Position numbers and translations under genes: made by a program
The notes under the pieces: model-generated
Seen by the model: only the letters and a program-made list of their open reading frames with translations
Databases searched by the model: none
Told to the model about the DNA's origin: nothing
NCBI GenBank assembly: GCA_022496185.1
Contig: WTXG01000052.1
Location: 124,001 to 188,000, forward strand
DNA: 64,000 bases
Direction of reading: 5' to 3'
Origin: Multifurca ochricompacta
Lineage: Eukaryota > Basidiomycota > Agaricomycetes > Russulales > Russulaceae
In this document: in pieces, positions 13,616 to 57,714 of the stretch
Layout: every line of letters begins with the position of its first letter
Position numbering within the stretch: the first letter of the stretch is position 1

Positions 13616-13617
13616 TT

Positions 13618-13629
13618 AGAACAGACTTA
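13618..13629 (+). other. Self-priming primer-binding site of gypsy-1
   Basis: AGAACAGACTTA begins two bases after the LTR and is the perfect 12-nt reverse complement of TAAGTCTGTTCT at 13222-13233, which sits about 30 bases below the TATA box at the predicted transcript 5' end. This is the arrangement of Tf1/sushi elements, where the RNA 5' end folds back as primer. No tRNA 3'-end match (TGG...) is present. Confidence 0.85.
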
Positions 13630-13843
13630 CAGAACTTAGAAAGAAAAGAACTTACTGAACGCGCGAGGCGACGACGACGCGTCCCTCGCCCCGACACCAG
13701 ACACCCCCGAACTTGATCCCCGACACCCAGACGCCAGCGATCCTAATCGCCGGCCCCAGAACTTAAGAAGAAAGGAGACTCACCCAGACCCGCGTCCTCT
13801 TGCCCGAACCCTGAACGAAGACGTCTTATTCCGCAAGGGAACC

Positions 13844-14236: not shown

Positions 14237-14475
14237 TTAGAATTACGAAAGGAGAACGCACCTTTCAGGAGATATTGGGTTCCCTACCAACATACACCCC
14301 TCGCGGTCGACCTCTACCACGTTCATCCCCACAACCTAGGACAGATTGAATCAGTCAGAATAGCCCCCAAAAGAAACTGGATTAAACGCACCTAATCCCT
14401 TCAGAATCCCACTAACCAAACGAACCCTTCAAATCGTTATTTGAAGCGCTACCAACAGAATCGAACCCGGGCCCA

Positions 14476-17400: not shown

Positions 17401-18846
17401 GACTTTACATTAGAGCACGTCCCAGGAAAGCTTCATACCGTTGCCGATATGCTCTCACGACGGCCAGATGCGGATCAAGGCGAGAACGATAACGACGAAG
17501 TCACAGTCCTACCAGCAGATTTATTTGTTAAGATGACGCAGTCAGTGAAACGTCCCTTCCCCAGTACCCTTCCAGAACAACGCGAGATTCTACAACGATA
17601 TCACGATCATGTGTTAGCAGGACACCCCGGAATCGACAAGACCACACGCGGAGTACAACGCGAGTTTGAAGGAGGAGACCTGAAGGAATTTGTACGAGAA
17701 TATGTCCGGGGATGCGCCAAATGTCAGGAGAATAAGCCGAAACTCACGAAGAAGGCGCCAATCTTTCCATTAGATGTACCGGCAACTGACGGCCCGTTTC
17801 AATATATTGCTATGGATCTCATCACGGATCTCCTGCCGGCTGGGAAGTATGACGCGGTACTCACGATCGTAGATCAGGGATGTTCTAAGGCAGCCAAATT
17901 CATACCTTGTTCTAAGGATATCACAGGTGAGGGCGTTGCTACACTCTACTATCGCCATCTCCTCCCGTTCTTTGGAGTCCCGCGACGCATTATCTCCGAT
18001 CGAGATCCACGGTTTACATCGCATTTCTCGCGTGCACTAGCAAAAGTCCTTCAAGTTCGACAGAATTTATCAACAGCGTTTCACCCTCGGACAGATGGAT
18101 CTAGTGAACGCATGAACCTTTGGCTCGAACAGTACTTACGACTCTGGATAAGCGAGGATCAACACCGATGGCCCGAGTACCTACCACTTGCAGAATATGT
18201 CCACAATTCCTGGCCACATGATAAAACGAAACTCTCTCCGCATGCACTGATCCACGGCATGCAGTTTGACTGGAAGGCCGAAGCTAGTGATACTAACGTT
18301 CCACAGGTTGATGAGCGTATGCGCAATCTACGCGACGCTCGATCTCGCGCAGAACACGCACTCCGAACGACCACGGATCTATCGGCCCGACCACAATTCA
18401 AGATCGGCGCGCAGGTCTGGCTTGAAGGAAAGCACCTGAAGACACATTTCCCCTCGTCTAAACTGGCCCCTCGTCGCTATGGGCCATTTACTATCTCGGC
18501 TTGTATTTCCCCTGTTGCCTATCGCTTAGCTCTGCCGGACCACATGAAGATTCACAATGTATTCCACATTGATCTTTTATCGCCTTACCTGGAAACTGAC
18601 GCTCATGGCCCTAATTACGCGAGGCCCCCTCCCGATCTTATCAACCAGGAAGAAGAATATGAAGTGGATGCGATCTTAAATCATCGCACTTATGGACGCG
18701 CAAAGAAAGTCCAGTACTTAGTCAGCTGGAAAGGTTATCCAGCCAGTGATAACTCTTGGGTCGATGAGGAGGATTGTCATGCCCCAGATCTCACCCGCGC
18801 CTACTACGATTCACTATCTAGGCGCCAGGGTCGGCACCAGTCTTAG
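14476..18846 (+). CDS. Gag-pol polyprotein of gypsy-1 (1456 aa, intact)
   Basis: A single open frame. Approximate residues: gag capsid region 50-230, CCHC knuckle CFECGYRGHLVRDC at about 273-286, aspartic protease with DSGATENF at about 401, reverse transcriptase about 540-780 with catalytic YMDDIL at about 728, RNase H from about 874 (DADASG, DREL, TDHNNL), integrase with HHCC finger at about 1044-1090 (GHPGIDK...CAKCQENK), catalytic core in AMDL (~1115), SDRDPRF (~1175) and DGSSERMN (~1211), and a chromodomain at about 1394-1446 containing YLVSWKGYPASDNSWV. All key catalytic residues are present. Gag and pol are fused without a frameshift, so protease processing is expected. The chromodomain likely targets integration to heterochromatin. 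A product of this length and order is normal for fungal chromoviruses. Confidence 0.97.
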   Translation: MSTTLPEPQPGQQQQSVDPENPEEGLTESLTTTTPKDGTTGGRIEGAPPPIFDGNRVEAEHWWTQVELHIFLNSQATVIKYEISRISYVLALMRGPKISGWVTEQTKWLANVAHARIQEPHPWEKFRQTFRAAFADETAEQKALEELEELRMTNGNIDDYIADFRDLAARAGLHLDNPATRQSFQKGLPRRLVQTMITQGSPRTFDETVDSARRYHTNWVFIQSLLGNKTTTTSQNSNQGVKFTLPRRRAPNAMDIGTNRKTEDKERYRREGRCFECGYRGHLVRDCPDKTPRQTTTAPTRTATITNVTPTTATVPTGSNVSKPTVNIAAIAASLKSMTDNQRLELQGQFKNDEDFLYRLNGAAFIRAIVSHHVFISPIRAMNVVIPLHGVKEKASIEALVDSGATENFINHRTVIKYRLPTKRLTIPKKLRNADGTPNATPNIDQYVDLDITTDNQSKRHRFYVASIGTDQMILGYPWFAASNPLINWTQGRLMQSIQLSVPGAHIRRLNIAQELAIKAKDNLERSWDQIVPKEYHRHQKVFSDQEAQRFPEARPWDHRIELKPDAPSTLDCKIYPLGPGEQDALNKFLEEHLQKGYIKESKSPYASPFFFIKKKDGKLRPVQDYRKLNQWTIRNTYPLPLIPELIDRVRGSTLFTKMDVRWGYNNIQIVPEDRWKAAFKTNRGLYEPNVMFFGLTNSPATFQTMMNAEFREELNERDEAGKAWFTVYMDDILIHTDHNLRDHQSKVHRVLDKLSKLDLYLKPGKCAFEQTRIEYLGLILEANQVHMDPVKVEGVAAWKTPTTVKEVRSFLGFCQFYRRFIQGFSKIAAPLNALTSVKNPWRWTETEQKAFDILKQRVTSQPVLMQPDFEEPFIVDADASGYALGATLSQKDPEGRLHPIAYLSKTLDATQRNWDIYDRELFAIIVAFRSWRQYLLGAKHKVQVRTDHNNLQYFKEPQKLNRRQARWLQELADFDFTLEHVPGKLHTVADMLSRRPDADQGENDNDEVTVLPADLFVKMTQSVKRPFPSTLPEQREILQRYHDHVLAGHPGIDKTTRGVQREFEGGDLKEFVREYVRGCAKCQENKPKLTKKAPIFPLDVPATDGPFQYIAMDLITDLLPAGKYDAVLTIVDQGCSKAAKFIPCSKDITGEGVATLYYRHLLPFFGVPRRIISDRDPRFTSHFSRALAKVLQVRQNLSTAFHPRTDGSSERMNLWLEQYLRLWISEDQHRWPEYLPLAEYVHNSWPHDKTKLSPHALIHGMQFDWKAEASDTNVPQVDERMRNLRDARSRAEHALRTTTDLSARPQFKIGAQVWLEGKHLKTHFPSSKLAPRRYGPFTISACISPVAYRLALPDHMKIHNVFHIDLLSPYLETDAHGPNYARPPPDLINQEEEYEVDAILNHRTYGRAKKVQYLVSWKGYPASDNSWVDEEDCHAPDLTRAYYDSLSRRQGRHQS

Positions 18847-19289
18847 AGGGGGGGTAAATTCTGACAATTAAAGGCCCATTTTCACTATTTTCCTTAACGA
18901 CTTCCGCTTCCAGCGAACGCTTTGTCAAGACAGATCAAGGTTCACATCTCTAATGGGCTTATCTTTAGACGACTTTCGCGATCATGCAATCTAGACGGAG
19001 ATCTCACATAATCATTATGCTACCAGACGACTCAGATCTAATCTACTAAGAAGAACTCGCGCGTTGACGACGGCAGGCGGACCGGACTGGCCGCGATGTT
19101 CAAACGCAATTTACATCTTATCTAACATCACGCGCACCAATCAGAACTTCACGCGACACTCCAATCAGACGAGATCGGACGCTCTCGACGCCATCGATGA
19201 CGCGAAGATCTCCACCTTCCTCTGCATATCACTGACGCGACTCTAATCAACTGAGCTTAGGGGCAAGCTCGACCGTACAACGGGGGTGA
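18847..19289 (+). other. 3' untranslated part of gypsy-1
   Basis: No gene is seen here apart from a 60-codon ORF without recognisable homology. The equivalent region of gypsy-2 holds a ~365-codon ORF3, so gypsy-1 appears to have lost it. Only short matches remain at both edges (G-rich tract after pol; GGGGCAAGC near 19260). CGGGGGTGA directly before the 3' LTR is the likely polypurine tract. Confidence 0.65.
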
Positions 19290-20028
19290 TGTGACGCTTA
19301 TTGTCGATGTGACAGCTTGCGACGCGCGTGTGACGTTTTGTGACGGTTTTTCGAGCCGCGCGCGTTCGACTTTTGTTTCAACGTTTCGACTTCTCGCTCC
19401 GAGTCATGTGACTGGAGCTGATGATCTTTCTTTATCTGATTTTCGGACTTCTTAGGCTGACTGGGATTGACACTCATTCGCTTCTGGAGTGGGTGCAACA
19501 CCACTTACATTTCCTGTCTCAATCTCCACTGGAGATTCACATGGACATTTACTTTACTATATTGAATCTTCTACTTTACTTACAAGACACTACAGTACAT
19601 GTATTTAAGCAGGACATCTTGGAGAGACAGACCTTAAGTCTGTTCTCTTGTATCTAATACAGGTCAACTTGTCTTTATCAGAATCCTCTTGAACTTCCCA
19701 AGCTGCAACTTAGGAAGCCTTCACCCCAGATCTTCAGCAGGGCCTATTGCCACTGCCTCGACTTGCTTCTTGCACGCGCCCCTCCTATTTTGTGTGGGCC
19801 TTGAACCTTGAACGCGGCCCTTGTGGTTTGCCTTGACACCTTGACATTGACGCGTGCCCTCTTGTATCTTGTGGGCCTTTGAACCTTGACCGTAGCTTGC
19901 TGTAGCTTGCCTTGGAACCTTGAATCAGTTTGCCTTTGACAGCTTGACCTTGGAGCTTGCATGCGTCTTGCATCTTGAGGACCTCAGACCAGAACGACCC
20001 TTGACACAGCAGAGACCTGGCTGTGACA
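19290..20028 (+). repeat. 3' LTR of gypsy-1
   Basis: 739 bp, read against the 5' LTR end to end by eye without a difference. It is followed by TGAAT (20029-20033), the target duplication matching 12872-12876. Confidence 0.96.
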
Positions 20029-21245
20029 TGAATGGTGTCTGGAACCACTTAGTCAGTCCCCCGCCCCCTACTCTCCCAGCAGACTGGGACAAAAAGGAAG
20101 GCGTTCTCATAGGCGTCCTTGAAGTTTACACTCAGAAGGATGTCTGGATGGCTGTAGCAGATGATACTAAGTTTGCTACTTGTAAAGCTAAGTGGGATGA
20201 GCTGCACCATGTCTACGGAGGAGTTGGATCTATGTCTACATTCAACACTTGGGCATCCCTCACAGGCACTGCCCTTGACGACTCCTTGCCAATGCTCCCA
20301 CAATTACAAAAGCTGAATGAAGCTTGCATCAGTCTCAAGAACAATGAGATGGAGATCTCTGATCTCCAATTTTCATTTATCCTCATCAAGGCTCTACCTG
20401 AGTCTTACTCAGCCGTCGTGTCAACAATACTTGCTTCCGGTGCACCATTGGGCCTTCTACCTCAGGTCATACAAGATCGCATTCTCAATGAGGAAGGTCA
20501 GCGATCCGGAGCTTCTGCATCACTCAACAAAGCTGTGCCCATCAAAAACAAGTCAAATAAACCAAACATTAAATGCTTTTATTGTCAGAAAAGCAGGCAC
20601 AAGGCTACAGAGTGTCGGAAGAAGAAGAAGGATGCAGAGGACAAGAAGGCAATGGAGGCAGCATCAGCCAATAAGGCGGTGAATGCTCACTTAGCTACCA
20701 CTTCGGCATTGATTGTAGAGGTAGCCGATGACAATGACAAGCTCTGTGTTGCCCTGTACTTGGCTGAGAGATCCAGATGGATGATGGATTCTGGTGCAAC
20801 TCATCACATTACCCCGCATCGATCAGACTTCATGACATACAAGCTCGCACATGGAATAGTGCGCTTAGGTGACAACTCTAATGTGAAGCAGATTGGGGTT
20901 GGGACTGTGGTATTCACTACCACTGTAGGGAACAAAGAGTCCAAAATCACACTGAACAACGTTCTACACATTCCAGACATGAAGACGTGCTTCATCTCAA
21001 CACGTGCTCTTGCCCAAAAGGGGGCTCAGATCTCGTTCCAAGATAATCACTTTCAGATCTCAGTCCAAGACCGGACAGTAGCACGAGGCTACTTGGAGGT
21101 GAACCTTTACTGGTTGGACACCTCCATGGCAGGCCTCAATGCGCACGTGCGCACTTCACTTCCTATTGACATCTGGCATCATTGCATGGGGCACATGTCA
21201 TACAATGCCCTGAAGTGATACCATGAATCTGTAAAAGGTATAACT
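20029..21245 (+). pseudogene. Copia-B gag-pol fragment, after gypsy-1
   Basis: It continues the gag frame from 12876. It carries the gag body with SDLQFSFILIKALPESYSA, a zinc knuckle CFYCQKSRHKATEC near 20573, protease WMMDSGATHHITPH near 20779, and the beginning of the integrase zinc finger (WHHCMGHMSYNALK). A TGA near 21216 stands where relatives have Arg. The element is cut at 21246 by the LTR of copia-3. The knuckle keeps CX2CX4HX4C but has R for the usual G before H. Confidence 0.88.
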
Positions 21246-22339: not shown

Positions 22340-23134
22340 GGTTATGGGCCCTGCCGCTCATACTGATCTGTAATTCCCTCTGTTCATCTACAGCCCAACT
22401 TGCTCTTGCACACCAAGCTCTCAAAAAGCTTCAAGTCTTTCCCACCACTTTCATCTGTGAGCTTCTTTATTTACCATCTGTGCACCTTAACACCCCACAG
22501 GATGATGCAGCCTACTGCTCATCCTGAACTGTTTGGCTAGCCCTTTGGGGTTCTTGCAAAAGGTGATGAGGGACCCTAAGTGGGTGAAACACCTTGAGCT
22601 CCTTGAGTGCGCACTAGGTATTAGTAACTTCATAGTTGTAGCTGGGTTTTTGTCCCATAGATAGTCTTAGTAGGCCTATAGCCAGAAGCTTGTGGCTTTA
22701 AGTCCAGTTAATGCTTGGCTCGATCCGTAAGCCAGGTTTAGCGACCTGCAGGTAGAGTTTAGGGTCTAGAACAAGGCATGGGTAGTCACTCCCATGATGC
22801 TTGGGCTCGATACAAGTAGGCTGCACTACTATAGTCTATACATAGTAGCTAGAAGGTTTTGTCTCTGGGCAGGAGTATTCGCTGCCATATTGTGGGGGTT
22901 CGCCCCACCAGAGGAAACCTGATAGTCTACTTAGTCGTGGCCCCAATCATCTAGGGCTTAATCATGGACTCCACCACCAGCACTAGAGGAAGGGCTCTAT
23001 ACCCTTTGTCTCTAGTGGAACTTGCGGTTGGCTCCTCCATGACATGACTCCCAGTCTTGTTTACACTAGACACTCTGGCTAGTCTACCAGAGCTTATGTC
23101 TAGTTGCAGGATTGCGCTAGACAGCTATACTATA
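22340..23134 (+). other. PBS and structured leader of copia-3
   Basis: The primer-binding site GGTTATGGGCCCTG is at 22340. The leader is strongly conserved with copia-1 and copia-6 although the gag proteins have diverged; the block from CTTGGCTCGATCC (near 22711) onward is nearly identical for more than 80 bases. The GGGG/CCCC hairpin here has stem GTGGGG/CCCCAC where copia-1 has TTGGGG/CCCCAA, a compensatory pair change. The palindromic Tc1-like element interrupts the leader at a TA. Confidence 0.75.
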
Positions 23135-24756
23135 CAGTGCCTCACAAAACTGAGTCAATGTTTTGCACTTTTGCACTGTTTGTTGAATATCACATCAACC
23201 AAAACAAATATAAACAAAGTCTTGGTATACCATAAAAGGTACAAGATAAGGGTTATGTAATCCAACAATAATTATGTAATTCTGATCAAAACCTGTGGAG
23301 CTATGCTCATTTCAAATCAGGGACTCATTGACTCAGTTTTGTGAGTGGGTATCAGAAATATCAGAATCTCATGCTCCACCAAGTGTACAGCAACCAACCC
23401 TTGATATATGGCTACCATAGTTATCTTACTACTGATGGGACCTGGAATAGAGATATTTAACCATGGTTAACATTCTCAGAATATTATAATTTCCCAATCT
23501 ACCCCACCTCCTCTGCTCAGAAGGAAAACATCCTCTCTTTGGCCTCCAAAGGTCATTCCACTTGCACTATTGCCTCCAGACTCAGCCTCAGCTATTCCAC
23601 AGTCTCTAGGACACACAGAACCCTCCATTTTGACCAGCAAATCTCCTCTGGTGGCTGTCCTTCTGAGCTCTCCACTACCTCCCAGAGAGCTATCCTCACT
23701 GAAATCACTACTGGCAGGGCTTCTAATGCTATCTAGGCCACCAATTACATCAATACCATCATCCCTACTCTAGTCCCCTCAGAAATGGCCAGGAAAGTCC
23801 CCAGAAAAAACTGATTCAAGGCTGTGGTGAAGAAGAAAAAGTGATTGCTTAGTGCAAGGCATAGACAGAAGAGGTTGGCCTTTGCTTTCAAGCACCAAAA
23901 CTGGACTGTGGAGGACTGGAAGAGGGTCATTTGGTCAGGTGAGACCAAAATCACCAGGTTTGGGTCAGATACCAGTCCTCCACAGTCCACTCTCTGTACT
24001 TGAAAGCAAAGGCCAACCTCATCTGCCTATGCCTTGCACTAAGCAAGTGCTTTTTTTTCTTCACCACAGCCTTGAATCAGTTTTTCCTGAGGACTTTCCT
24101 GGCTGTTTCTGAGGAGACTAGAGTGGGGATGATGGTATTGATGTAATTGGTGGCCTGGACAGCATTAGAAGCCTTGCCAGTAGTGATTTCAGTGAGGATA
24201 GCTCTCTGGGAGGTAGTGGAGAGCTTGGAAGGATGGCCACCAGAGGATATTTTCTGGTCAAAATGGAGGGTTATGAGTGTCCTAGAGACTATGGACTGGC
24301 TTAGGCTGAGTCTGGAGGCAATAGTGCAAGTGGAATGACCTTTGGAGGCCAGAGAGTGCATGTTTTCTTTCTGAGCAGAGGAGGTGGGGTGCATTGGGAA
24401 ATTATAATATTCTGAGAATGTTAACCATGGTTAAATATCTCTATTCCAGGTCCCATCAATAGTAAGATAAATATGGTAACCATATATCAAGGATTGGTTG
24501 CTGTACATTTGGTGTAGCATCAGAGTCTGATATTTCTGATACCCACTCACAAAACTGAGTCAATGAGTCCTTGATTTGAAATGGGCATAGCTCCACAGGT
24601 TTTGATCATGCTTACATAATTCTTGTTGGATTACAAAGCCCTTATCTTGTACCTTTTATGGTATACCAAGACTTTGTTTATATTTGTTTTGGCTGATGCA
24701 GTATTCAACAAACAGTGCAAAAGTGCAAAACATTGACTCAGTTTTGTGAGGCACTG
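23135..24756. mobile_element. Palindromic Tc1/mariner-like element 1 (foldback)
   Basis: 1622 bp flanked by the TA target duplication (23133-23134 and 24757-24758), with ends CAGTGCCTCACAAAACTGAG and its inverse. The terminal inverted repeats extend over the whole element: arms 23135-~23919 and ~23972-24756 are inverted copies around a spacer of ~52 bp. Each arm encodes the N-terminal half of a Tc1-type transposase reading inward (HTH region with TIASRLSLS; then WTVEDWKRVIWSGETKI), so the element has two N-termini and no C-terminus. The first catalytic Asp of WSDET is Gly. It is non-autonomous. Confidence 0.9.
24077..24394 (-). pseudogene. Truncated Tc1 transposase N-terminus in the right arm
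   Basis: A 105-codon minus-strand frame with SLASKGHSTCTIASRLSLS, typical of the paired HTH DNA-binding domain of Tc1 transposases, followed by the GHPSKLSTTSQRAI linker (GRPR-like position). It stops at TGA before the catalytic domain. The left arm has the same protein on the plus strand (about 23519-23810) with a TAG. Confidence 0.8.
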
Positions 24757-24901
24757 TACCTAGAAAGTTGCACAACAGAGGCAGGACCTTCTTAGGTTCT
24801 GAAGCATAGCGCCACAGTATGGGGTGGCACTCTTAAGCGAGACCTGGGCACTGGTTCTAACTGCTCCTTGGAACCAGGAACACCTACATACATCTCAAAA
24901 A

Positions 24902-33908: not shown

Positions 33909-36900
33909 ATGCCTTATTCAGCACGAGAACCCCAGACCCCCTTGGCCTCCTCAACAGACAACAAATCCCTCGACTACCAGTCACCAGAATGAAACCTACC
34001 AGAACAGTCAGCCAGACAAAGATTTGGAGACATACCATTTGAAAACCAAAATCGCTTTGCATTACTTGCAAGCGATTCCCCTGCCGAAAGCCCCCAAACC
34101 AAAACCCCCACAGCACCTCTCCCATCCAGACCTCCACCCCCTTTTGAAGAAATGGCTACTATCACACTTACTGAACCAGGATGAACACATACCCAACTTA
34201 GCCACCCCATGAGACAACCAAAGAACAATTCTCCCAATTTAGGAGGCCCACCAGGAGGAAGTCCAGGAGGACACCCTGGAGGGAACCCAAGCAGGCACTT
34301 GGGAGGAAACCTAGGCAGAAATCCAGGAGGAAACCCAGGAGGGAACCCTGGAGGGAATCCGGGAGGAAACCCCCAGGGAGCCCCCATCCTGATGCCACAG
34401 GGAGGACACATGGAAGGGGCCCCTCCTTCCTACTTTGACGGCAATAGGGCCCACATGAAACGATGGTTTGCCTTGCTCGAACTCCACTTTGCCCTTAATG
34501 TGTTTGTGCCCCTAGTCCAGAACAAGCGATCCAAGGTGGCCTATGCGTTAGGAATAATTTGTGGTCCAAAGGTCGATCGATGGGTTGAGGAACAAGTATA
34601 TTGGCTGGCTGACATCAACACAGGACGAATCGGAGTTGTAAACGTGTGGGAAACATTCTGGCAAACATTCCTTGCTGCATGGACAGATGTTGTGGCAGGA
34701 CAAAAGGCATTACAGGCGCTTGAGAAATTACAAATGAAGGAGGGAAATATTGATGACTATATCGCCAAATTCTGTGACTTAGCCATTTTGTTACGCTCAG
34801 CGGAGCGTTCTGTGCGGCGTGCACGGGTCGGCGCGGGTCCATTACCTCAGCCACGAGCCTAGCACGATAAGGCTAGACTCTGGGCACTGTCTAGCTTCGG
34901 AATTGGTCAAGGTTTGGTGCTATAATCAAGCACAGAGGGAGACGGGATGAGCCAGCCAAAGGGAGCTAATCCCCTAAGGCTGTTAAGTGGGGACAGGGCC
35001 CAGCTGCTGTGCCGGAAGCACACCAAGTGCACTGGAGCCCTTAGGGAGTGGCAAAGGGGTTCAAAAGGAAGGGTACACACCCATTGCCAGAGGCAATGGG
35101 GGTCCCTGCAGGGATCTCAAGGACGCAAAAAAGGGGGAAAAGGCTTCTGATGTATTGGGGTCTAAGATCTCTAGGCTGAAGGCCCAAGAGGTCAAATCTG
35201 GGGTTGTACAAACTGTCTACAGGGTCTTATATACTGTATGGGGATCTGGTTTGTAGCTAATCAGGAACAGGGTCAGAGTCCTTATCATCCAATAGCAGAT
35301 AAGATGTCAAATATAGTCCATGATAAGGATAAGCCTTATCAGAAGCATAATCATGTGGGACAGCCCCACAGGAGTCATATCAGTGTGGGAGGATTCCCAC
35401 CAGGGTCAGGGGTAAATGGGGAGATAACAGGTCCCACAGGAGTCAGGGTGGATGTGGGAATACTCCCACAGGAATCAGAGAAGCGAATGATAAGCCAGAT
35501 GGGCCATGTGATCAGAAAGGGGTAAATGATCAGATGAAGATGCTGTGATCAGGGTCAGGGATCACATGGTCCAAAGTCACATGGTCAGGGATCACATGGT
35601 CAAGGATCACATGGCCAAGGGTCACATGGCCAGGAGTCACATGACTGGCAGAGGGTCAAGTACAAGCCAAAGTCGTCTAGTTGTCTGGACTGGTCAGATT
35701 GGCAGGGACAATGTCAGGGGTTCCTATGGGTGTCAAGCACAGGGACAGGGTCAGGAGCAGTGGCCAAGGCATAAGCCAAGGCAGCAAGGAAGGGTGGTGT
35801 ACATCCAACAGTGTAGCAGCATAACTACCAGCAGGTTGGGTGTAAATGGCAGCAAGGGAGGTCAGTCCTATGAACAATGTCACAGGAATCAGGGTAGGGT
35901 CCTGGGCACACAGGCCACAGGCATCAAGGAAGGTCCCAAGGCAACAGGCCAAGGGCATCAAAGAGTGGTCCAGAGAAGGAGGAGATCAAGGATGGTGCAA
36001 AGAATAAGGCATGGTGTGCAGGGTCAGGAAAAAGAGTAGGGTCGTAACACATTTGGGCTGGACTACACATCGACGACACAGCGCACAACAATACTTCTAT
36101 CGTGGCTTACCAACCCAATTGGTTGCGACAATGCTGACTCAAGATCAGCCAGAAAATTTTGAAGAAGCATCAACATCCACCCGACATCACCATGCAAATT
36201 GGGTTTTTATGAAAAGCCTAACAAAGAACAAAACAGCCACCTCTCTGTCACCTCGAGGAAATAAGTTCACATTCTATCACAAAAAGGACCCAAATGCAAT
36301 GGATGTGGATGTTATCAGGAAAGCAACTACCACAGAAGAAAAAGAACAATACAGAAAGGAGGGATGGTGCTTTGAGTGTGGGTGATGAGGACACTTGGTC
36401 CAAGATTGCCCCAATAGAAAACCCCAATCGAGTCCAAGTAACTCAGCCCAGACTGCCACCATCTTGGAAGCACCACTCACGACTGTGGTGGTACCCAGCA
36501 GATCTAATGGGGCGTCCACAACTTCCCCAGTGTTGGCCACTCCTACCATCAGCATGTCAACACTCGCAACAGTTCTAAAAACAATGACAGACAAGCAACA
36601 TCTTGAGCTACAAGACCAATTCAAAGGAAATGAGGATTTTTATATCACCTGAATGATGCGGCCTTCATTTGGGCTCTAGTCTCACACCATGTATTTAGAT
36701 CACCACTCAAAGCAATGAAACTATTTGTTCCCTTACATGGAGTGAATCAAGAGGCCACAATAGAAGCACTGATTGATAGCAGTGCAACTGAGAACTTTAT
36801 CAGCTACCGAACAGTAATTAAACATCAACTCCCCATAAAAAAATTAACTATCCCAAAGAAATTACAAAACGCAGACAGCTCTCCTAATGCCACAAAGAAA

Positions 36901-38188
36901 ATAGATCAATGCGTGGACCTCCTTATTACTATGGCAGGAGATACTCAGAAACATTGGTTCTATATAGCATCTATTGGATTAGATGACATGATCCTAGGAT
37001 ATCCATGGTTTGCGGCCAGCAACCCCAATATCAACTGGACCTCAGGACAACTAACACAATCTATTTCCTTCACCATACCAAAAGAACATGTCTGCCGCCT
37101 TAACATCGCACAAGAACTGGCCATCAAAGCAAAGGATAAAACGGAACGATCTTGGGATCAGATTGTGCTGTGGGAATACCATTGACATTGGAAAGTCTTC
37201 AGTGACAAAGAAGCACAACAATTCCCAGCCTTGCAGCCTTGGGATCATAAAATTGAGTTAAAATCAGATGCACCTGCTACCCTGGATTGCAAGATCTACC
37301 CACTCAGACCAGGAGAACAAGATGCACTAAACAGCTTCCTGGAAGAACACTTGCAGAAGGGGTACATACAAGAATCAAAGTCCCCTTATGCCTCGCCATT
37401 TTTCTTTATCAAAAAGAAGGATGGGAAACTGCAACTGGTCCAAGACTACTGAAAACTAAATGACTGGACCGTTCAGAATACATATCCACTTCTGCTGATC
37501 CCTGAGCTAATTGATTGGGTTCACGGAAGCACACTCTTCACAAAGATGGACATCTGATGGGGTTATAATAATGTTCAGATAGCACCGGAAGATTGCTGGA
37601 AGGCAGCATTCAAAACAAATTGCGGCCTCTATGAACCTAATGTCATGTTCTTTGGCTTGACGAACTCTCCCACAACATTTCAAACAATGATGAATGCAGA
37701 ATTCCGAGAAGAATTAAATGAACACGACGCCTCAGGAAGGGCTTGGTTCATGGTCTATATGGATGACATCCTGATCCATACTGACCAGAACCTTCAGAAT
37801 CATCATGATAAAGTGCATCGCATCCTGGACAAACTTAGCAAACTAGATCTATACCTCAAACCAGAGAAGTGTTCATTCGAACAAATGTGTATTGAATATC
37901 TCGGACTTATTCTGGAAGCTAACCAGGTACATATGGACCCAGTCAAAGTGGAGGGAGTTACTACCTGGAAAACGCCTACCACTGTCAAGGAAGTCCGTTC
38001 ATTCCTTGGATTCTGCCAGTTCTATCATCACTTCATTCAGGGGTTTAGTAAAATCGCAGCGCCCCTAAATGCGCTTACTAGCACAAAGAATCCATGGCAA
38101 TGGACAAGCCATGAGCAGAATGCCTTTGACATGCTGAAGCAATGAGTCACCTTGCAACCAGTCCTTGCCCAACCCAACTTTGACAAAC
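33909..38188 (+). pseudogene. Gypsy-2 gag-pol, 5' part (gag, PR, RT)
   Basis: A possible original start is the ATG at 33909 (MPYSAREPQTPLA), with an N-terminal extension homologous to the gypsy-1 leader ORF. A Gly/Asn/Pro repeat (GGNP units, about 34240-34385) precedes the capsid domain (34400-34785). After the family-A LTR, gag resumes at 36055 and includes the zinc-knuckle start WCFECG, broken by TGA. Protease has DSSATENF near 36775, with Gly of the DSG triad replaced by Ser. RT has YMDDIL near 37759. In-frame TGA codons replace Arg at about 36386, 37183, 37450, 37557 and 38143. The frame ends at LTR-C. Confidence 0.9.
34789..36049 (-). repeat. Complete solo LTR, family A
   Basis: 1261 bp, TGTTACGC...GTCGTAACA on the plus strand, flanked by CATTT at 34784-34788 and 36050-36054. 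Excising it rejoins the gag frame. TATATAAG is on the minus strand near 35233. It carries the hairpin cluster (35350-35475) and the CATGTGA-type minisatellite (35560-35650). It is an inverted copy of the LTR at window position 1. Confidence 0.94.
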
Positions 38189-45317: not shown

Positions 45318-47076
45318 CAAACCCTTCATTGTAGACACAGATGCATCCGGATATGCTCTAGGTGCCACCCTCAGCCAAAAGGATCACAAAGACTGCCTCC
45401 ATCCTGTGGCCTACTTGTCGAAAACCCTAGATGCAACTCAAAGGAACTGGGACATTTATGATCAAGAACTGTTCACCATTATAGTTGCTCTCCGATCTTG
45501 GCATCAGTATCTTTTGGGAGCAAGACATAACGTCCAAGTCTGTACAGATCACAATAATTTGCAATACTTTAAGGAACCCCAGAAACTTAACCGATGACAG
45601 GCCCGATGGCTCCAAGAGCTCGCCGACTTTGACTTTTCATTGGAACATGTCCTGGGAAAATTACACACTGTCGCAGATATGCTCTCGTGCCAACCCAACA
45701 CCAACCAGGGTGAAGACGACAATGACAAAGTCACTGTTTTACCCGCCGATCTATTTATCAATGCAATTTCCAATGCAAAACTTCCATTCCCCAAGGCACT
45801 AGCCGAACGCCATGAGATCCTTCAATGGCATCATGACCATGTACTAGCGGGACACCCGGGGATAGATAAGACAATGTGGAAAGTCCAACAAGAATATTCA
45901 GGTACTGGCTTATGGGAATTCATACAAGATTATGCCTGAGGATGTGCTAAATGTCAAGAAAATAAGCCGAAACTCACAAAGAAGGCCCCTTCTTTCCTGC
46001 TAGATGTACTGGCTTCTGCCGGTCTGTTTCAATATGTTGCTATGGATCTCATTACAGATCTCCCACCATCAGGCAGATATGACATGGTGCTCATGATTGT
46101 TGATCAAGGATGCTTGAAATCTGTGAAATTTATCCCCTGCTCGAAAAACATTATGGGCAAAGGGATCGCCACACTCTACTACCAACATCTCTTCCCATTC
46201 TTTGGTGTCCCATGATGAGTTATCTCTGATCGCAATCCCTGATTCACATCTCATTTCTTGCATGCGCTAGCAAAAGTCCTACACATTCAACAAAACCTGT
46301 CTACAGTGTTTCATCCTCAAACAGATGGTTCGAGCGAATGGATGAATCTCTGGCTTGAACAATACCTACATCTATGGCTTGGCGATGATCAGTACCAATG
46401 GCCCCATTACCTACCACTAGCCGAATATGTCCATAACTCTTGGCTGCATGATAAGACTAAGTTAACCCCCCACATGTTACTCCATGGGACTACCTTTACC
46501 TGGAATGCTCAGACAATTGATACGGATGTCCCACAAGTGAATACTTGAATTCAAAATCTCCTAGCAGCACGCACCTGAGCAGAAGAGGCACTCCAATCAG
46601 GCGCGCGCCCTCCACCCCAACCTGCCTTCTCTGTTGGCTCACAGGTTTGGTTAGAAGGTAAAAACCTCAAAACACACTTTCCCTCAACCAAACTCGCCCC
46701 ACGATGATATGGCCCCTTCATGATCTTGGCCCAGATCTCCCCCATGGCTTATCACTTATTGTTACCTTCACATATGAAAATACATAACATCTTCCACACC
46801 GACCTCCTATCGCCCTATTGCGAGACAGATGCCCATGGCCCCAACTTTTTGCGTCCCCCACCTGACCTGATTAATCAGGAAGAAGAATATGAAGTCGCCT
46901 CCATCCTAGATCACAGACTCTTTGGCCGTAACAAACAATTACAATACCTGGTCAGCTGGGTTGGCTATCCGGCAAGTGAAAATTCCTGGGTTGATGAAAC
47001 TGACTGTCATGCCCCAGATCTCCTCACACAATATCATAGCTCTCTTTCGCAGCATCAGGGTCGACGCTGTCCTTAA
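45318..47076 (+). pseudogene. Gypsy-2 pol, 3' part (RNase H, integrase, chromodomain)
   Basis: Resumes at KPFIVDTDASGYALGATLSQ, exactly where LTR-C interrupted. RNase H motifs are DTDASG, DQEL (DREL in gypsy-1) and TDHNNL. Integrase has GHPGIDK...CAKCQENK, AMDLITD, SDRNP and DGSSEWMN. The chromodomain includes YLVSWVGYPASENSWVDE. In-frame TGA stops at Arg positions lie near 45596, 45938, 46214, 46217, 46241, 46546, 46577 and 46692. Apart from these the protein aligns to gypsy-1 without gaps of note. Confidence 0.92.
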
Positions 47077-47194: not shown

Positions 47195-48295
47195 ATGTCC
47201 ACATCTCACCATATTCCCACCAGTGTTACAAATCCCACCATCATTGACCAAACTATAGCAGCAGTAAACAACACAGCAACCAAAGCAGCCCTAAGACAAC
47301 CCATGGACACCCCAATGCTTCCCCCCACTCTGACAACTCAAACACCTCCACCACACCTTTCTTTCCCTATGACAGACGATCCTTCCCAAAAAGTGACTAA
47401 CACAATCACACTAACTGCACAAAATCAAAATCTAGAGCTCGAGGTTCGAACTAGAGTCCTTGCTATGCTCCAGGAAGCTAGGGTGCATCTGGAAGCGATC
47501 TACAACCCCCCCGAGACTACTAACGAGGCTGCAGTGTATCGTCCAGACTCTCCAGAACTAGGTCAACTCCCTGATGAGGTTGTAGTAACACAAACAGCAG
47601 CTGAGGTTAATGTGGCAGCACGCAGAAACTATGATCCTCCTCCTCCACCTTTCCAATGCAATCACATACACACCCCTTACTACATCGAGCACCGCATCTC
47701 TGACTATGAGGGCCAGATCAATGTGGCCCGATGGCTGGCCTTTGAGTATCAACACGCTGACCCACACATCGCTTTCACTATGGGAGCAGGACAACCAATT
47801 ACTTACCTTCCACTCTATGCCCGACCCCATCCATGCTTCACTTGGGGATCAAACCCAATCCTCACACAATTCCAACAGCGCCTGTTCGAGGCAGAACAGG
47901 CCTTCACACCCTTAGTTAGCTCAGCCCTAGATGACCTACAAGACCCAGGCGCGTGGGCAGAAGTTTCTCACTATTGATATGCTACTAGACATTTGGATCA
48001 GGCTCACTACGAATTAGCCCACTGGCATTGCCAAGCGGACCACACAAATCAAGACATCCAGTTAGCCATACATGCCCTTTCAAGAGGAGACATGTACCAC
48101 AGATTATTTCCTTTCTTAATGTATGCCTATGCTAACAATCAATGTATATGCCCAGAGGAGGCCACTCGTTATGCCCCACATCCCAAACTACGTGCCGTCC
48201 TTCAAGTGGGCAGTATAGGCAGTACCCACCTACCTTGTCGATGCCATCTGCGCCATGCTCCATCTCGTGTCGTTGACCTCACGCATGACGACTAG
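47195..48295 (+). pseudogene. ORF3 of gypsy-2 (post-pol ORF, unknown function)
   Basis: An ATG at 47195 opens 260 codons ending at TGA 47975-47977. The same frame continues to 48295, so the original protein was about 366 residues with one CGA-to-TGA-type stop. The first third is Thr/Pro-rich, and the rest is well composed with PYYIEHRISDYEGQ, an Asp/Gln/Ala-rich middle and a C-terminal Cys/His part (CRCHLRHAPS). I recognise no domain, and there is no signal peptide or membrane segment, so it is not an obvious env. It is unrelated to ORF3 of gypsy-B by eye. It is missing from gypsy-1. Confidence 0.7.
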
Positions 48296-48407: not shown

Positions 48408-49573
48408 GTTACAACTCACTGTCGACTGCCTGGACAGTGGGTTGTATGCGAAGGGGAAGGGATTTGGAAGTGGGCAAAGGATGAGAGTGAGGGTGAAAGT
48501 GCAAGGGAGACAAAGTGAACAGCTCAAGGGCAAGTGTTACGTCCGGTGCAGGACGTTCCACACGACTTGTGTGACAGCTTATTCTACGGGTTCAGATAGG
48601 AAAGTCAATAGGACTTCCTGGAGTTCGGGTGAGATGAGTCAAAGTCCAAAGGGCTGCCCCTTGAGACAATGTTGAGCGGAAAGTGCCAAAAGCACTGAGA
48701 CGAACGAGTCAGAGATTCAAAGGGGATGTCCAGAAGACAGGCACCAATGTATTCAATAAGTCGAGTCTGAGGTCTACAAGGTAGCTACAGTGGACTTATA
48801 TACGTAATCGAGTGGGCGTCTACGAGATAAGGAGTATGAGTCAGGTGGGCCTGAATATACGGAAGCGGAGGGCGTAAAGCTTGGCTTCTGATAGGGTACT
48901 AAGTAAGTGTCCGGTCTTAAAGATAAAGAGATAACGAGATAAGAAGGCAAACATAGGTACATAGTCCGTCAACAGATACAAGCAAGTCACAGGGATGGAA
49001 GCAAGGCACGTGAAGGATCCCAGGATGGGGACGTGATCAGGAAGTGTAAAGTGGGCGGTAAAGAAGGGTTGTCATTGGGGAGGGTGAAGAAGACAGGGAG
49101 GGAGGGTAAAATTGTAACAGCAAGGGATGAGAAGCCTTCCACAAGGTGGGGCTAATCTCCTAGGTAATCAGGAACTGGATCACAAGTGGACAGTCTGGAG
49201 CTGTCCATTCTATTCCTAAAGGGTTTATATATGTAATTACAACCGGGACTTTGGTCTGTGCACCACTTTAGGGGAGGTTAACTTTGCTTTAACTCCCTAC
49301 TGATCCACCAATGAGAATAGCCCCACTTTTGGGCTTAGAAATCTGCAGTCCGCAGTCCACAGTTTGTGGACTGCTGTTTAGGCATTGTGGGGTTCTGTTA
49401 GTACTCTTCCCACAGGTCTTCCAATTTGGCAGGAGTCCGGCCCTGGTCCGGACCGGCCCTTCTCTGGTCTTAATCTAGGGTTATCTTTGTCTCTGAGGGT
49501 TCTACAAGGTCTCTGGGAGCATCTGGGGATTTCTGGGGGGTCAGGAGGTCCTCTAGGGTGTCAGTTCATGACA
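48408..49573. mobile_element. Unclassified insertion with 14-bp flanking duplication
   Basis: About 577 bp of non-coding DNA (after removing the family-B LTR within it) sits between two copies of GATTTCTGTTACCT (48394-48407, 49574-49587). It begins GTTACAACTCAC and ends TTCATGACA. TATATATG near 49210 gives a weak LTR-like look, but the 14-bp duplication is too long for a standard retrotransposon LTR. No coding sequence is seen. Confidence 0.55.
48535..49119 (-). repeat. Solo LTR, family B
   Basis: 585 bp flanked by GCAAG at 48530-48534 and 49120-49124. It is nearly identical to the family-B LTR at 56721-57307. Confidence 0.94.
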
Positions 49574-50104: not shown

Positions 50105-53100
50105 AGCTTCTGTTTGGGAACAAACCAGATGTCTTGTATTTCAAGGTCTTTGGTTGCAAAGCCTATTATCATGTTCCAGAGGGCAAGCAGCAAAAATTAG
50201 ATCCCAAAGCTAGGGAAGCTGTCTTTGTCAGATATGAGCCCACCTCCAAGGGCTATACACTTTGGGATAGTCATATCCAGTCTCTCATCTCTTCACAAGA
50301 TGTTACATTTGATGAGAGATCCTTCCCATCCCGCTCTGTAAAGGACAACAGAGCAGATAAACCTATAGAGCAACCTAGTGAAGGCAGCTCATTTACTTTA
50401 CCTGGTAGCAATGTCCAGCTACCACCAGCAACTGCTACACATGTTCCTGAGGCCCTCAAGATGAGGAAGACCTGGAAGAGGAACAGGAGGACATAGTACC
50501 TCCTCAATTACCACCACAGCCTACCACACCCACACATAATGTAGACACCACGCAACCTCAGACTATATATCAGACCCCTCCATCACAAGTCATGGAACCA
50601 TCCTCCCCTCCCAAGAGAACCCGTGCAATCAGAAAATCTGAAAGAATTGCAGGCAGACTTCCTCAACCAAATTTTCAGAGGACAAGTCCATGCTCTGAAC
50701 AACAAGATAGGGCAATCCAAGAAGATTTAGACTTGGATACTGCACATCCCAATTGGAATTGTCATCTGAATCCTCGCTTCTACAACAAGGATAATGCAGA
50801 GTTTGTGCAGGGTTCTTCCAGACTTGGTCAGATGGATCTACTCAATGCTGCAGGATCGCCTTATAGGATCCTCTTACCTTTAAAGAAGCAATGGAGTCTG
50901 ATAATGCCAGTGATTGGCTTGAGGCATGTCAATATGAAATCGATGCCTTAGAAAAACTTAAAGTGTGGTGCCTTGAAGACCTTCCTAAAGGTAGAAAGGC
51001 TGTAAAGTCCAAGTGGGTCTTTAAATTGAAAGCAGATGGATGCTTTTGTGCTAGGCTTGTAGCAAAAGGGTTCACCCAAATAGAGGGGTGGACTTTGACG
51101 AAACTTTCTCCCCAGTCACCAGATTTGAGTCTCTTAGACTACTGTTAGCATTGGCCATGCTTGAGGATTGGGAAATCCACCAAATGGATGTCAAATCGGC
51201 ATTCCTACATGGCAATCTGGATGAGGAGATCTATATGGAGCAACCTGTTGGTTTTGTCATTGCTGGACAAGAGTCCAAAGTTTGTAGGCTACAGAAGGCT
51301 CTGTATGGCCTCAAACAAGCTTCCAAGCATGGAACTTGCAATTCCATGCAGTTCTCAATGAACTGAGCTTTACTTGGACATACTCTGATGCAGGAGTACA
51401 GTGGGTCAAAAAACTGTCCCAATGTTTGCACCATTTCTAGTATTCACTCTATAGCACCTCAGCATTTAGGAATCTGGTTATGGTGTGGCTGTATGTCTGA
51501 AAGCCCTGCTTCCTGGCTACCATGCCCAATTTGGATCAAAGAAATTGGCCATGATATAAGCATTTTATGATCAAATCAAATCAATCAATCATCGGGACAG
51601 TTTTTTGACCCACATTTTAAATCCACTATCTGCCCAATTACTCCTTTTTTTCACCCCTTTTTGCCTTGGTAACTCCTTGAATCCTTTTAGTCATCCTTTC
51701 TATAACCTTTTGCCATCATTCTGGTGCATTTTTATTCCACTCCTCCACCACCCTCTCCCACAACTCAGGTATCCCCTTGACTGGTTAAGATCCTTCTTCA
51801 GATCCACCCAGAGGTGTCCAATGGGGCTAATATTTCAAGGGATTGGGCTATCCATACCAGGCTTCAATATTCCTGTCTTAAAACTGCTGGCTTGCCTTCT
51901 TGGAATTGTGTTTTGGGTCATTGTCCCACTGAAACATGCTTTCACCCTCCACCATTTCTTACTTTTCAAACCTTTCCACCACTCTGCCATCCAAAATATC
52001 ACAGTACTGGCATGGATTCATGATCCCCTAAACCCCTGTAAGCATTCCTAGTCCATTCCACCCCATACAAGACCAATACCATAAGTTCTTCCTCCTCCAT
52101 GCTTGACTGTCAGGGTGGTGGTTCTGTCAGAGGGTGGTTCTCCCTTATTTTTCCCAAGTGTAGCTCCTTCTGTCTGAACCAATTCTGTTCATTATAGTCT
52201 CACCTGACCACAAGATCCTTTTCCAGTCATCCACTGTCCAATTTTCATGGTAACCACTCTCTGACAGAACCACCACCCTGACAGTCAAGCATGGAGGAGG
52301 AAGAACTTATGGTATTGGTCTTGTATGGGGTGGAATGGACTAGGAATGCTTACAGGGGTTTAGGGGATCATGAATCCATGCCAGTACTGTGATATTTTGG
52401 ATGGCAGAGTGGTGGAAAGGTTTGAAAAGTAAGAAATGGTGGAGGGTGAAAGCATGTTTCAGTGGGACAATGACCCAAAACACAATTCCAAGAAGGCAAG
52501 CCAGCAGTTTTAAGACAGGAATATTGAAGCCTGGTATGGATAGCCCAATCCCTTGAAATATTAGCCCCATTGGACACCTCTGGGTGGATCTGAAGAAGGA
52601 TCTTAACCAGTCAAGGGGATACCTGAGTTGTGGGAGAGGGTGGTGGAGGAGTGGAATAAAAATGCACCAGAATGATGGCAAAAGGTTATAGAAAGGATGA
52701 CTAAAAGGATTCAAGGAGTTACCAAGGCAAAAAGGGGTGAAAAAAAGGAGTAATTGGGCAGATAGTGGATTTAAAATGTGGGTCAAAAAACTGTCCCGAT
52801 GATTGATTGATTTGATTTGATCATAAAATGCTTATATCATGGCCAATTTCTTTGATCCAAATTGGGCATGGTAGCCAGGAAGCAGGGCTTTCAGACATAC
52901 AGCCACACCATAACCAGATTCCTAAATGCTGAGGTGCTATAGAGTGAATACTAGAAATGGTGCAAACATTGGGACAGTTTTTTGACCCACTGTATATGTG
53001 TATCATCACCAAGAGGGGGATGGCTCACTTTTTGTCATTTTATATGTTGATGACATCACTATACTTGGGTCCTCCACTAAGAAGATTCAATGGCTGAAGG

Positions 53101-53277: not shown

Positions 53278-53858
53278 TGTTACGTCTGGTGTGGGACGTT
53301 CCACACAACTTGTGTGACAGCATTGGTCAAGGGTTTCAGATAAGAGGTCAATAGGACTTCTTGGAGTTCAAGGGGACGAGTCAAAGTCAAAGGGGCTGTT
53401 CCCTAAGACGATGTTGAGTGGAAAGTGCCGAAAGCACTGAGACAGACGAGTCAGAGATTGCAAGGGGAAGTCCAAAAGACGAACACTGATGTATTCAATA
53501 AGTCGAGTCTAAGGTCTACAGCATAGCTCAGACGGACTTATATATGTAAATGGATGGGTGTCTATAGATAAGGATATCAGAGTCATGTGGGCCCAAAGAT
53601 ACGAAAGCGGATGGTGTAAAGCCTGGCTTCTGATAGGGGATTAAGTAAATGTCCAGTCATAAAGATAAGAAGATAAGAGAGGACAAGCATGGACAAATAG
53701 TAGATATACAAGTCTAAACAACAGTCACGGGGATGGAAGCAACGCATGTGAGGGGTCCCAGGAGGGAGACGTAATGAGGAAGTGAAGGGTTGGTGGACAG
53801 GTGGGGTCCCGGTTGGGGAGAGTGAAGAAAATAGGGCTGCTGGGCCCTGTTCGTAACA
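53278..53858 (-). repeat. 3' LTR of gypsy-B copy 2
   Basis: TGTTACGTCTGG...TTCGTAACA on the plus strand, 581 bp. The polypurine tract (minus AGAAGGGAGGGTGA) abuts it at 53859-53872. It is diverged from the other family-B LTRs. Confidence 0.9.
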
Positions 53859-53889: not shown

Positions 53890-55083
53890 CTAGAAACGCG
53901 CACCATCATCGTCCTGTACCAAGTCCACATAATCATCCACCAGATTTCGATCCTCCACGGTGTAGGTTTCATCTGCCACACATTGGTGTGTGCACAGGAA
54001 ACCGTATGGGCTGCGCCGTCCGCACTGGTGACACAGGTTGTACACTGGACAGTCGAGCTCGCGATGTCCTGCATTGTGTTGCAGACACTTTCCACACCAT
54101 CCCGATGGGTTGACAATGGTGGGTGCGACTCCCAGACGTCGGAAAATGCAGAATCTGCTCCAGTGGAGGTTGCTTCGGCAGTGGCGGCACCATTTGCAAT
54201 TGAGGGGGCAATTCCAGCTAATGTGATACTTGCTGTCACATCACCAGCAGGTCTCCCCTCGGGGGTTCTCGTGCATTCGCGGCATCTCGAATCGGTTCGG
54301 TAGCAGTTGTGGTGCCGCTCCTAGCGATTGTGGGGGAAGGGGTCGGGCGTATGTGTCGGCATACCTCTCTGCAATGGTCTGATATGCGTCCCCTATCTCC
54401 AGCCTTTTCCGAATCTCCGTCAACTCCTGCTCGACTTGGAACATGCCTCTCGTGAGCCTTGTCATTTGCTTTGCATATTCCTTGTACTGGTTATTGAGTG
54501 TGGTGCGAAGTGCGAGGGTCTTCCGCAGTCTCATTACTTTGGCTTTGAGACGCAGGAGTCGCATGTCATTCAACACCTCATTGATTGCAAAGGCTCGGGG
54601 GTCGTTGGCCGCAAGGTGCCCCAGCTGTTCGTCACTCATTGTGTGGTGAAGACGACCTGTATATCGCTCTTCCAAGTAAACCGGGGCCCCATAAACAGGC
54701 CCATCCTTCTTCATGCAGCCTGCGACATCCATTCCTCCATTGGTGTAGAATATGTACTTAGCTATTTCTTTTGTTCCATCAGCCATTGTGATTTTGAGTG
54801 GGAAGTACATGGAGGAGTTTGGGTTGTTGGCGAAGAATGGAAACTCGGGTACTTCATCATCTTGCTCCATGCCAAGGAGGTCGTTTGGGTGGGGTTCTTC
54901 AGAGTGGGTGAAGTCATCATTTGGATTGGGTGACTGGTTCTTGACGTGTTCTTCAGCAGCTTCATAGTCAATAGGAGAGGAAGGGCGAGTGGAGGGATGA
55001 GCAGAGGGGAAGGCTTCCACAACCACAGTAGTGGCAGCAAAGGCGTCAATGGCAGCAGAGGCAGCGATGAAGGAAGAGGACAT
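53890..55083 (-). pseudogene. ORF3 of gypsy-B, best-preserved copy
   Basis: 280 codons open from ATG 55083 to a TGA near 54241; the same frame continues to TAG at 53890-53892, for about 397 residues. N-terminal Ala/Ser/Pro-rich part, an acidic stretch (GMEQDDEVPEFPF), a conserved middle with YIFYTNGGMDVAGCMKKDGP and YLEERYTGRLHHT, a Leu/Lys/Arg/Glu-rich likely coiled coil (RLLRLKAKVMRLRKTLALR), then zinc knuckles (CDSKYHISWNC; CRHCRSNLHWSRFC), more Cys pairs and the acidic end VQDDDGARF. The TGA removes the second Cys region (Gln codon in copy 1). It agrees closely with copy 1 at 1389-2658, which supports a real conserved protein. Confidence 0.78.
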
Positions 55084-55159: not shown

Positions 55160-55511
55160 CTATTTCCTGGGCGCCTGAGGATGTCATAAGTGGAACTCCG
55201 TGATCAAGTCTGGGGCAAAAATATTCCCGGCTGGTTCCCACGAATTGTCAGAGTCTGGGAATCCCTTCCACTTGATCAGGTAATGTAGTTTGTGCCCTCG
55301 GCCTCGATAAGCGGAGTTCATAATCCGTTCCACTTCCCACTCTGCTTCTCTGTTGACTAATTCCGGTGGAGGTCTTGGGAAGTTTTCCCCATGAATGGAT
55401 GTTTCCTTGTATGGTGTTAGAAGCTTCGCATGGAAGACTGGGTGGATCTTCCACGTGGGGGGAAGTTCGAGTTCATATGACACATCCAATAATTTCCTTG
55501 TGATTTGGAAG
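55160..55511 (-). pseudogene. Integrase C-terminus and chromodomain of gypsy-B copy 2
   Basis: Minus strand: KLLDVSYELELPPTWKIHPV, FHAKLLTPYKE, then chromodomain EWEVERIMNSAYRGRGHKLH, YLIKWKGFPDSDNSWEPAGN. A TGA at 55184 replaces the Arg of HARHP in copy 1; the original stop is at 55160. The upstream integrase core is lost at the solo LTR junction (55512). Confidence 0.9.
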
Positions 55512-56720: not shown

Positions 56721-57307
56721 TGTTACGTCCAGTGCGGGATGTTCCACACGACTTGTGTGACAGCTTATTCTACGGGTTCAGATAGGAAAGTCAATAGGAC
56801 TTCCTGGAGTTCGGGTGAGATGAGTCAAAGTCCAAAGGGCTGCCCCTTGAGACAATGTTGAGCAGAAAGTGCCAAAAGCACTGAGACGAACGAGTCAGAG
56901 ATTCAAAGGGGATGTCCAGAAGACAGGCACCGATGTATTCAATAAGTCGAGTCTGAGGTCTACAAGGTAGCTACAGTGGACTTATATACGTAATCGAGTG
57001 GGCGTCTACGAGATAAGGAGTACAAGTCAGGTGGGCCCGAATATATGGAAGCGGAGGGCGTAAAGCTTGGCTTCTGATAGGGTACTAAGTAAGTGTCCAG
57101 TCTTAAAGATAAAGAGATAACGAGATAAGAAGGCAAACATAGGTACATAGTCCGTCAACAGATACAAAGCGAGTCATGGGGATGGAAGCAAGGCACGTGA
57201 AGGATCCCAGGATGGGGACGTGATCAGGAAGTGTAAAGTGGGCGGTAAAGAAGGGTTGTCGTTGGGGAGGGTGAAGAAGACAGGGAGGGAGGGTAAAAAT
57301 TGTAACA
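56721..57307 (-). repeat. 5' LTR of gypsy-B copy 2, family B
   Basis: 587 bp, TGTTACGTCCAG...ATTGTAACA on the plus strand, TATATAAG in minus orientation. It is nearly identical to 48535-49119. Confidence 0.92.
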
Positions 57308-57714
57308 GTTCAGTTGTGAATGGTCAAAACTGTATATATTAATTAGTCTTTACCTAAACAGGTAGCAAGATAACTATGCGAGTAATGTTAGCTATATGCA
57401 TGGTAAAGATAATCTAAGTAAATACTCACTTCAGTTGTGAATGGTCAAAACTGAAGTGTACAACACATAAATAATGTCCTTAAATACTGTAAAGAGTGTG
57501 CTGTGCTATGGTCATGAAGGATTGTATCTTAATCATAAGTAATCATAACTAACAAGTGGAATGTCAGTAGGTATATTACAATGTCCACTTAACTCCGTCT
57601 TGTACTGGCAACTCCGGTCACCTCTGATCTGGTCCAGCCAACTCTGATCCGTTACTGGCTCAACAGTCACATGTCCAACAAAAAGAAAGAGACAATGCGG
57701 CAGGGTTCATAACA
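57308..57714 (-). repeat. Truncated copia-like LTR at the edge of the transposon block
   Basis: In minus orientation it starts TGTTATGAACCC at 57714, has TATTTAAGG (57487-57479) and, 29 bases on, a 10-bp perfect hairpin CACTTCAGTT/AACTGAAGTG (57427-57458) followed by GTGAGT. A partial second copy of the hairpin region is at 57309-57332. This repeats the layout of the copia LTRs with a different loop. It is cut by the gypsy-B LTR at 57307. Confidence 0.65.

Follow-up and report, generated by a model that had tools for sequence, protein, structure and literature searches.

A zinc-motif ORF3 downstream of the chromodomain in a Ty3/gypsy chromovirus of Multifurca ochricompacta

A Ty3/gypsy chromovirus of the basidiomycete Multifurca ochricompacta (Russulales, Russulaceae) carries a third reading frame, ORF3, which is a real, strongly conserved accessory gene and is widespread in this genome. 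We studied ORF3-K, the form with zinc motifs, starting from a window of 64,000 nucleotides (the whole stretch of contig WTXG01000052.1 that was analyzed). On balance (probability about 0.55), we favor the reading that ORF3 is an element-encoded accessory nucleic-acid-binding protein, probably acting on the RNA of its own element. Present in diverged form in two element families and missing in a third, ORF3 offers a natural comparison for what an extra RNA-binding protein contributes to an LTR retrotransposon, and it bears on how retroelements have filled the env position with non-envelope genes.

ORF3-K in the window and in its element

In the window, ORF3-K runs on the minus strand from an ATG at 55083 to a stop ending at 53890 (397 codons), exactly as first predicted. 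An in-frame TGA at 54241-54243, within the first zinc knuckle, splits this copy. Its zinc region, with four motifs, covers residues 279 to 368 (53980-54249, minus strand; coordinates computed from residue numbers). Before it lie a helical, coiled-coil-like region at about residues 151 to 250 (54334-54633, minus strand), placed on the basis of helix 204-273 of the homologue P0002, and a conserved beta-rich region at about residues 76 to 150 (54634-54858, minus strand); the boundaries of both are approximate.

Upstream, a fragment comprising the integrase C terminus and a chromodomain remnant (55166-55510, minus strand; 93.9% to the chromodomain part of the genomic locus L010) alone survives of the rest of the element, and the 3' LTR follows ORF3-K at 53278-53858 (minus strand; 89% to the L010 LTR). 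An outer element encloses this remnant with LTRs at 48535-49120 and 56721-57308 (both minus strand), which are 97.3% identical; a gag N-terminal fragment (56668-56138) follows the latter. The insertion is truncated and composite, and ORF3-K of the window survives in it as part of a remnant, not of a whole element. Within the same interval, flanked by copia-like frames, there is a near-perfect inverted repeat at 51386-53005 (arms of 754 nt, 99% complementary, spacer of 112 nt), and a large inverted repeat lies at 23133-24758 (arms of 787 nt, 93% complementary, spacer of 52 nt).

The original prediction also proposed a second, diverged copy with the same layout at 1389-2658. Indeed, tblastn places a diverged ORF3-K copy at 1401-2583 on the minus strand, 3' of an open integrase-chromodomain frame (2663-3937, minus strand; Pfam Integrase_H2C2 and Chromo, 2.5e-15, with an rve match below the Pfam cut-off); the ORF3 frames of this copy are broken.

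Genome-wide, ORF3-K has at least 137 matches (scored among 1,967 candidates), many of them open with 399 to 478 aa, and the idea of a gene captured at this locus only is thereby dismissed. Among the matches listed, a chromodomain lies upstream on the same strand for at least 65 of the 137, with 60 to 83 nt between the match ends, and none has a chromodomain neighbor on the opposite strand. Conversely, at least 79 of the 150 chromodomain matches listed have an ORF3-K match directly downstream.

We fetched 19 loci of 10 kb, selected for an open ORF3 frame. LTR pairs are present in 13 of them (527 to 599 nt aligned, 95.7 to 99.7% identity). The other six (L009, L012, L013, L017, L019, and L021) were set aside; in L013 and L019 the repeat pairs are all more diverged, and L009 contains repeats of other kinds only. 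A script detected exact 5-bp target-site duplications at seven of the 13 LTR-paired loci (L010, L011, L018, L022, L024, L025, and L027). The ORF3-K stop lies 31 nt from the 3' LTR, with a purine-rich tract between, in all 12 loci that could be measured; the ends of L026 were not found. From the open reading frame coordinates, the gene order is gag, protease, reverse transcriptase (RT), RNase H, integrase, chromodomain, ORF3. The parts of L010 match Retrotrans_gag, zf-CCHC (one CCHC), gag-asp_proteas, RVT_1, RT_RNaseH, and Chromo (E 1.3e-15) in Pfam; for the Gag of the element, Retrotrans_gag is above the cut-off and Ty3_capsid below it. With its LTRs and duplications, ordered Gag and Pol domains, and chromodomain at the integrase C terminus, the carrier of ORF3-K is a Ty3/gypsy chromovirus, and both the window and the LTR-flanked copies bear out a position 3' of the chromodomain, at the place of env.

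No family fits ORF3-K in a Pfam scan, which leaves room for capture of a gene that serves the host. Against this, ORF3 recurs within LTR and target-site limits in many copies and has a relative in a second chromovirus (see below), and we consider a host gene very unlikely. No single-copy host relative occurs among the best matches listed, where one would not be expected to show.

Purifying selection on ORF3

ORF3-K is under strong purifying selection, with dN/dS of 0.03 to 0.10 in most classes of divergence. Among 28 open ORF3 coding sequences, the NG86 ratio is 0.035 at dS 0.8-3 (183 pairs; dS above 1 is near saturation), 0.042 at 0.4-0.8 (33 pairs), 0.065 at 0.2-0.4 (8 pairs), 0.077 at 0.1-0.2 (2 pairs), and 0.198 in one closer pair. 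These classes cover 227 of 378 pairs, which are not independent of one another, the rest lying outside the classes, as with saturated dS. Within the protein, the beta-rich (0.066) and zinc (0.075) regions have the lowest pN/pS and the two ends the highest (0.179 and 0.228).

Six element parts were compared across four classes in the 19 full loci; outside the closest class, ORF3 has the lowest ratio throughout (0.068, 0.038, and 0.030). In the closest class (five pairs) ORF3 is at 0.101, and lower values belong to the gag parts (0.076 and 0.063, from two and three pairs) and the chromodomain part (0.097). In each of the four classes ORF3 stays below both the integrase part and the protease-RT part; since the loci were picked for an open ORF3, this comparison with gag and pol favors ORF3. 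The classes hold 117 of 171 ORF3 pairs and fewer for the other parts.

A conserved protein had been proposed, with neutral evolution among copies as the contrary outcome; ratios far below 1 decide for the former. They also led us to reject a frame that arose by chance or is decaying: both copies in the window are broken, as such a frame would be, but the selection result and the identical zinc ligands of database homologues leave this reading a negligible probability. Internal stops in genomic ORF3-K matches are TGA, the exceptions being three matches in which TAA occurs, alone or beside TGA. Such near-exclusive use of TGA would fit C-to-T change at CpG, that is, methylation-linked decay, in a tally that does not account for codon opportunity.

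Zinc region, relatives, and candidate function

Four zinc motifs follow one another in the C-terminal part of ORF3-K: CX2CX4HX4C twice, then CX2CX6HX4C, then CX2C-X11-HXC. The two canonical knuckles of the original prediction are both present, but the total is four, the further two being variants. In a seven-sequence alignment, five of whose members are database homologues at 35 to 38% overall identity, none of the sixteen ligand columns varies. The full set of motifs, in this order, is present in all 28 of our own open coding sequences. Of the 30 database homologues with 405 aa or more, 29 have it too, and P0020, which ends after motif 3, does not. Across all 96 database homologues, many of them shorter, any CX2C is found in 48 and a pair of canonical knuckles in 38.

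In a profile search of PDB sequences, the first two motifs match the tandem CCHC of LIN28A (E 2e-6) and a retroviral nucleocapsid (E 0.001), so that this part of the protein looks like a knuckle array of the RNA-binding kind. RNA binding by this part is a prediction from motif likeness, and such motifs can have DNA or protein as ligands too. Beyond the array it shares with nucleocapsid and LIN28, ORF3-K has two noncanonical motifs, a long helix, and a beta-rich region, and it is not part of Gag. The coiled-coil-like middle that was predicted finds a counterpart in an AlphaFold model of the homologue P0002 (68 sequences), which has one confident long helix (204-273); mean pLDDT is 52.7, so that the coiled coil rests on this single helix.

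Taken together, we propose that ORF3 would be made separately from Gag-Pol, would oligomerize via its long helix, and would bind nucleic acid, presumably RNA, via the four C-terminal zinc motifs. Its target is most likely the genomic RNA of the element, with export, packaging, or chaperoning for reverse transcription as the candidate steps. ORF3 would thus work like an extra nucleocapsid that does not descend from Gag.

Descent from Gag, by duplication or capture, is the subject of a separate comparison. The nucleocapsid-type knuckles and the long helix would suit a second Gag, but hhalign of ORF3-K against the Gag of its own element aligns only 21 residues at a probability of 1.5%. Similarly, Retrotrans_gag and Ty3_capsid, matched by Gag, are not among the families listed in Pfam scans of ORF3. 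The low-confidence models of P0002 and of the ORF3-N protein described below show no helical capsid bundle, which at such confidence weighs neither for nor against a capsid fold. We rejected ORF3 as a detectable gag duplicate on the hhalign and Pfam results and hold a second Gag to be quite improbable. Of the proposed "second nucleocapsid-type protein," the nucleocapsid-type zinc region stands, and a second Gag-like protein by descent is not supported.

The env position would also suit an envelope-like or fusogenic protein for cell-to-cell transfer. Hydropathy gives this reading some footing, as the highest 19-residue mean is 1.6 or more in 11 of 58 proteins (best 1.75, at residue 27). Nevertheless, 47 of the 58 fall below that threshold and the C-terminal part is, by its motifs, probably zinc-binding, which makes an envelope extremely unlikely.

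A different chromovirus in the window carries ORF3-N, a zinc-less ORF3 at 47195-48295 on the plus strand, starting at the methionine of MSTS and interrupted by an in-frame stop at 47975-47977; the chromodomain match of this element is at 46633-47037 (plus strand). ORF3-N has 145 matches in the genome, some only pieces. A chromodomain precedes it in L037 (the window locus) to L040, and one of ten other short loci begins with a chromodomain end. When one ORF3-N sequence alone was first set against ORF3-K, the outcome was negative. Profile against profile, hhalign aligns the two over 158 columns (probability 97.4, E 1e-11), compared with 0.2 for the reversed control and 2.2 for the best of 40 column shuffles. 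The shared stretch corresponds to the beta-rich and helical regions, and the joint alignment displays common motifs. Judged by these profiles, ORF3-N is a remote homologue of ORF3-K. A model of the ORF3-N protein P0098 has a mean pLDDT of 57.2, with a more confident beta-rich part at about residues 161 to 220. The arginine-containing tail of ORF3-N is usually basic, with a net charge of 0 to +5 over the last 45 residues in those 11 of the 14 sequences that are longer than 300 aa; the charge is negative in two of the three shorter pieces.

A third chromovirus (12877-20029, plus strand) has 740-bp LTRs that are 100% identical and a single open Gag-Pol frame at 14416-18846 (1476 aa), and is an intact-looking, very recent insertion. 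Between Gag-Pol and the 3' LTR it has no frame longer than 83 aa, i.e., no ORF3. In blastp of the integrase parts it is 51.8% identical to the ORF3-N element and 42.1% to the ORF3-K element; being closer to the former, it implies that ORF3 was lost there or gained twice, on pairwise blastp and not on a tree. A gypsy fragment at 34563-37770 has no chromodomain match and was excluded from the count of chromoviruses.

As a tentative wider reading, which we regard as possible, basidiomycete chromoviruses might share an undescribed accessory superfamily. To the beta-rich region and coiled coil, its members would add a nucleic-acid-binding tail that can be exchanged (one with four zinc motifs or an arginine-containing one); they would be expressed from a spliced subgenomic RNA at the env position, and would form a second ribonucleoprotein component needed for mobility. 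Two observations count against the accessory nucleic-acid-binding protein that we favor: ORF3-N is without CCHC motifs and its tail is not always basic, and the chromovirus with identical LTRs in the same window has no ORF3.

Expression and comparison with known systems

No in-frame fusion of ORF3-K to integrase is conserved among the copies. All 29 aligned copies keep TTAAAAG, and in L010 and L025 the stop codon of integrase lies within it. All 29 also have CCCCAG (CTTCAG in two), with pyrimidines ahead of the CAG, about 40 nt upstream of the ORF3 start codon. At the level of a guess, this conserved CAG would fit a spliced subgenomic mRNA; no splice donor for such an mRNA could be established in the sequence, and reinitiation or an internal promoter may serve instead of splicing.

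Its position and separate frame would likewise be in keeping with an ORF3 that regulates element RNA or chromatin, through Rev- or CERV-like export, anti-silencing, or partnership with the chromodomain in integration targeting, and is not a component of the particle. Gag already supplies a nucleocapsid knuckle, which again favors a regulator. Further, the available account of Cer1, an LTR retrotransposon of C. elegans (PMC10309623), describes the product of its third ORF, CERV, as required for export of genomic RNA. CERV, for which leucine zippers are predicted and a cysteine finger is a potential feature, is the nearest functional analogue found. CERV differs in being from a nematode, with a five-exon spliced mRNA and a frame shared with gag, and the likeness, drawn from descriptions, is one of analogy. 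We consider a regulator unlikely, and continue to favor an accessory protein acting on element RNA.

Extra frames in fungal elements have precedent. As excerpted, the survey of Novikova et al. 2010 (PMC2864245) reports one or two ORFs, Gag and Pol, for most full-length fungal elements, and a figure legend on Ty3/gypsy elements names an additional ORF of function not known. Those elements are, like the carriers of ORF3, fungal and mostly chromodomain-containing; in the text, figure details aside, CCHC motifs are mentioned for Gag only, unlike in ORF3-K. The claim that the arrangement is unusual for fungal chromoviruses holds insofar as three ORFs depart from this majority, and fails insofar as extra ORFs had already been marked. 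In the open-licence literature we found no description of the ORF3-K protein family. As described in part, bdelloid rotifer LTR retrotransposons (PMC5408684) have a non-envelope ORF3 downstream of pol, like ORF3-K, but a DEDDy-like or GDSL-like one, and insect LTR retrotransposons (PMC11952523) have an accessory sORF2, 3' of pol in some Lepidoptera, that is a transmembrane, fusogen-like protein of 63 to 107 residues; both likenesses are by description only.

Other features of the ORF3-K element were seen alongside. L015 and L016 (C34:52500-74899) are nearly identical and lie about 3.5 kb from each other in opposite orientations; their flanks match crosswise (ATACA/TTACG), a pattern such as an inversion or an inverted duplication between the two copies would leave. 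After the 5' LTR, AAGTCGAGTCT (within the first 13 nt) is complementary without mismatch over 11 nt to AGACTCGACTT at nine of the 13 LTR-paired loci, the latter site lying in the LTR close to where the RNA putatively starts. The LTR site is about 26 nt after TATATAAG in this set (L010 and others). Three of the remaining four loci have a substitution on one side, and L014 is without the site; shuffles gave such a complement in 0 to 1 of 500. The complement adjacent to the 5' LTR parallels that of Tf1 self-priming, and a Tf1-like self-priming of this element is likely from its sequence.

Finally, the gag N-terminal part (L010:6697-7368, minus strand, with relatives, and window 56668-56138, minus strand) has about 145 codons before the first conserved ATG, and dN/dS over the whole 223-aa part is 0.08 to 0.18. 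In L022 and L025 the gag frame stays open upstream as far as the end of the LTR, in L010 as far as a nearer stop, and a non-AUG start or a spliced leader exon may account for this part.
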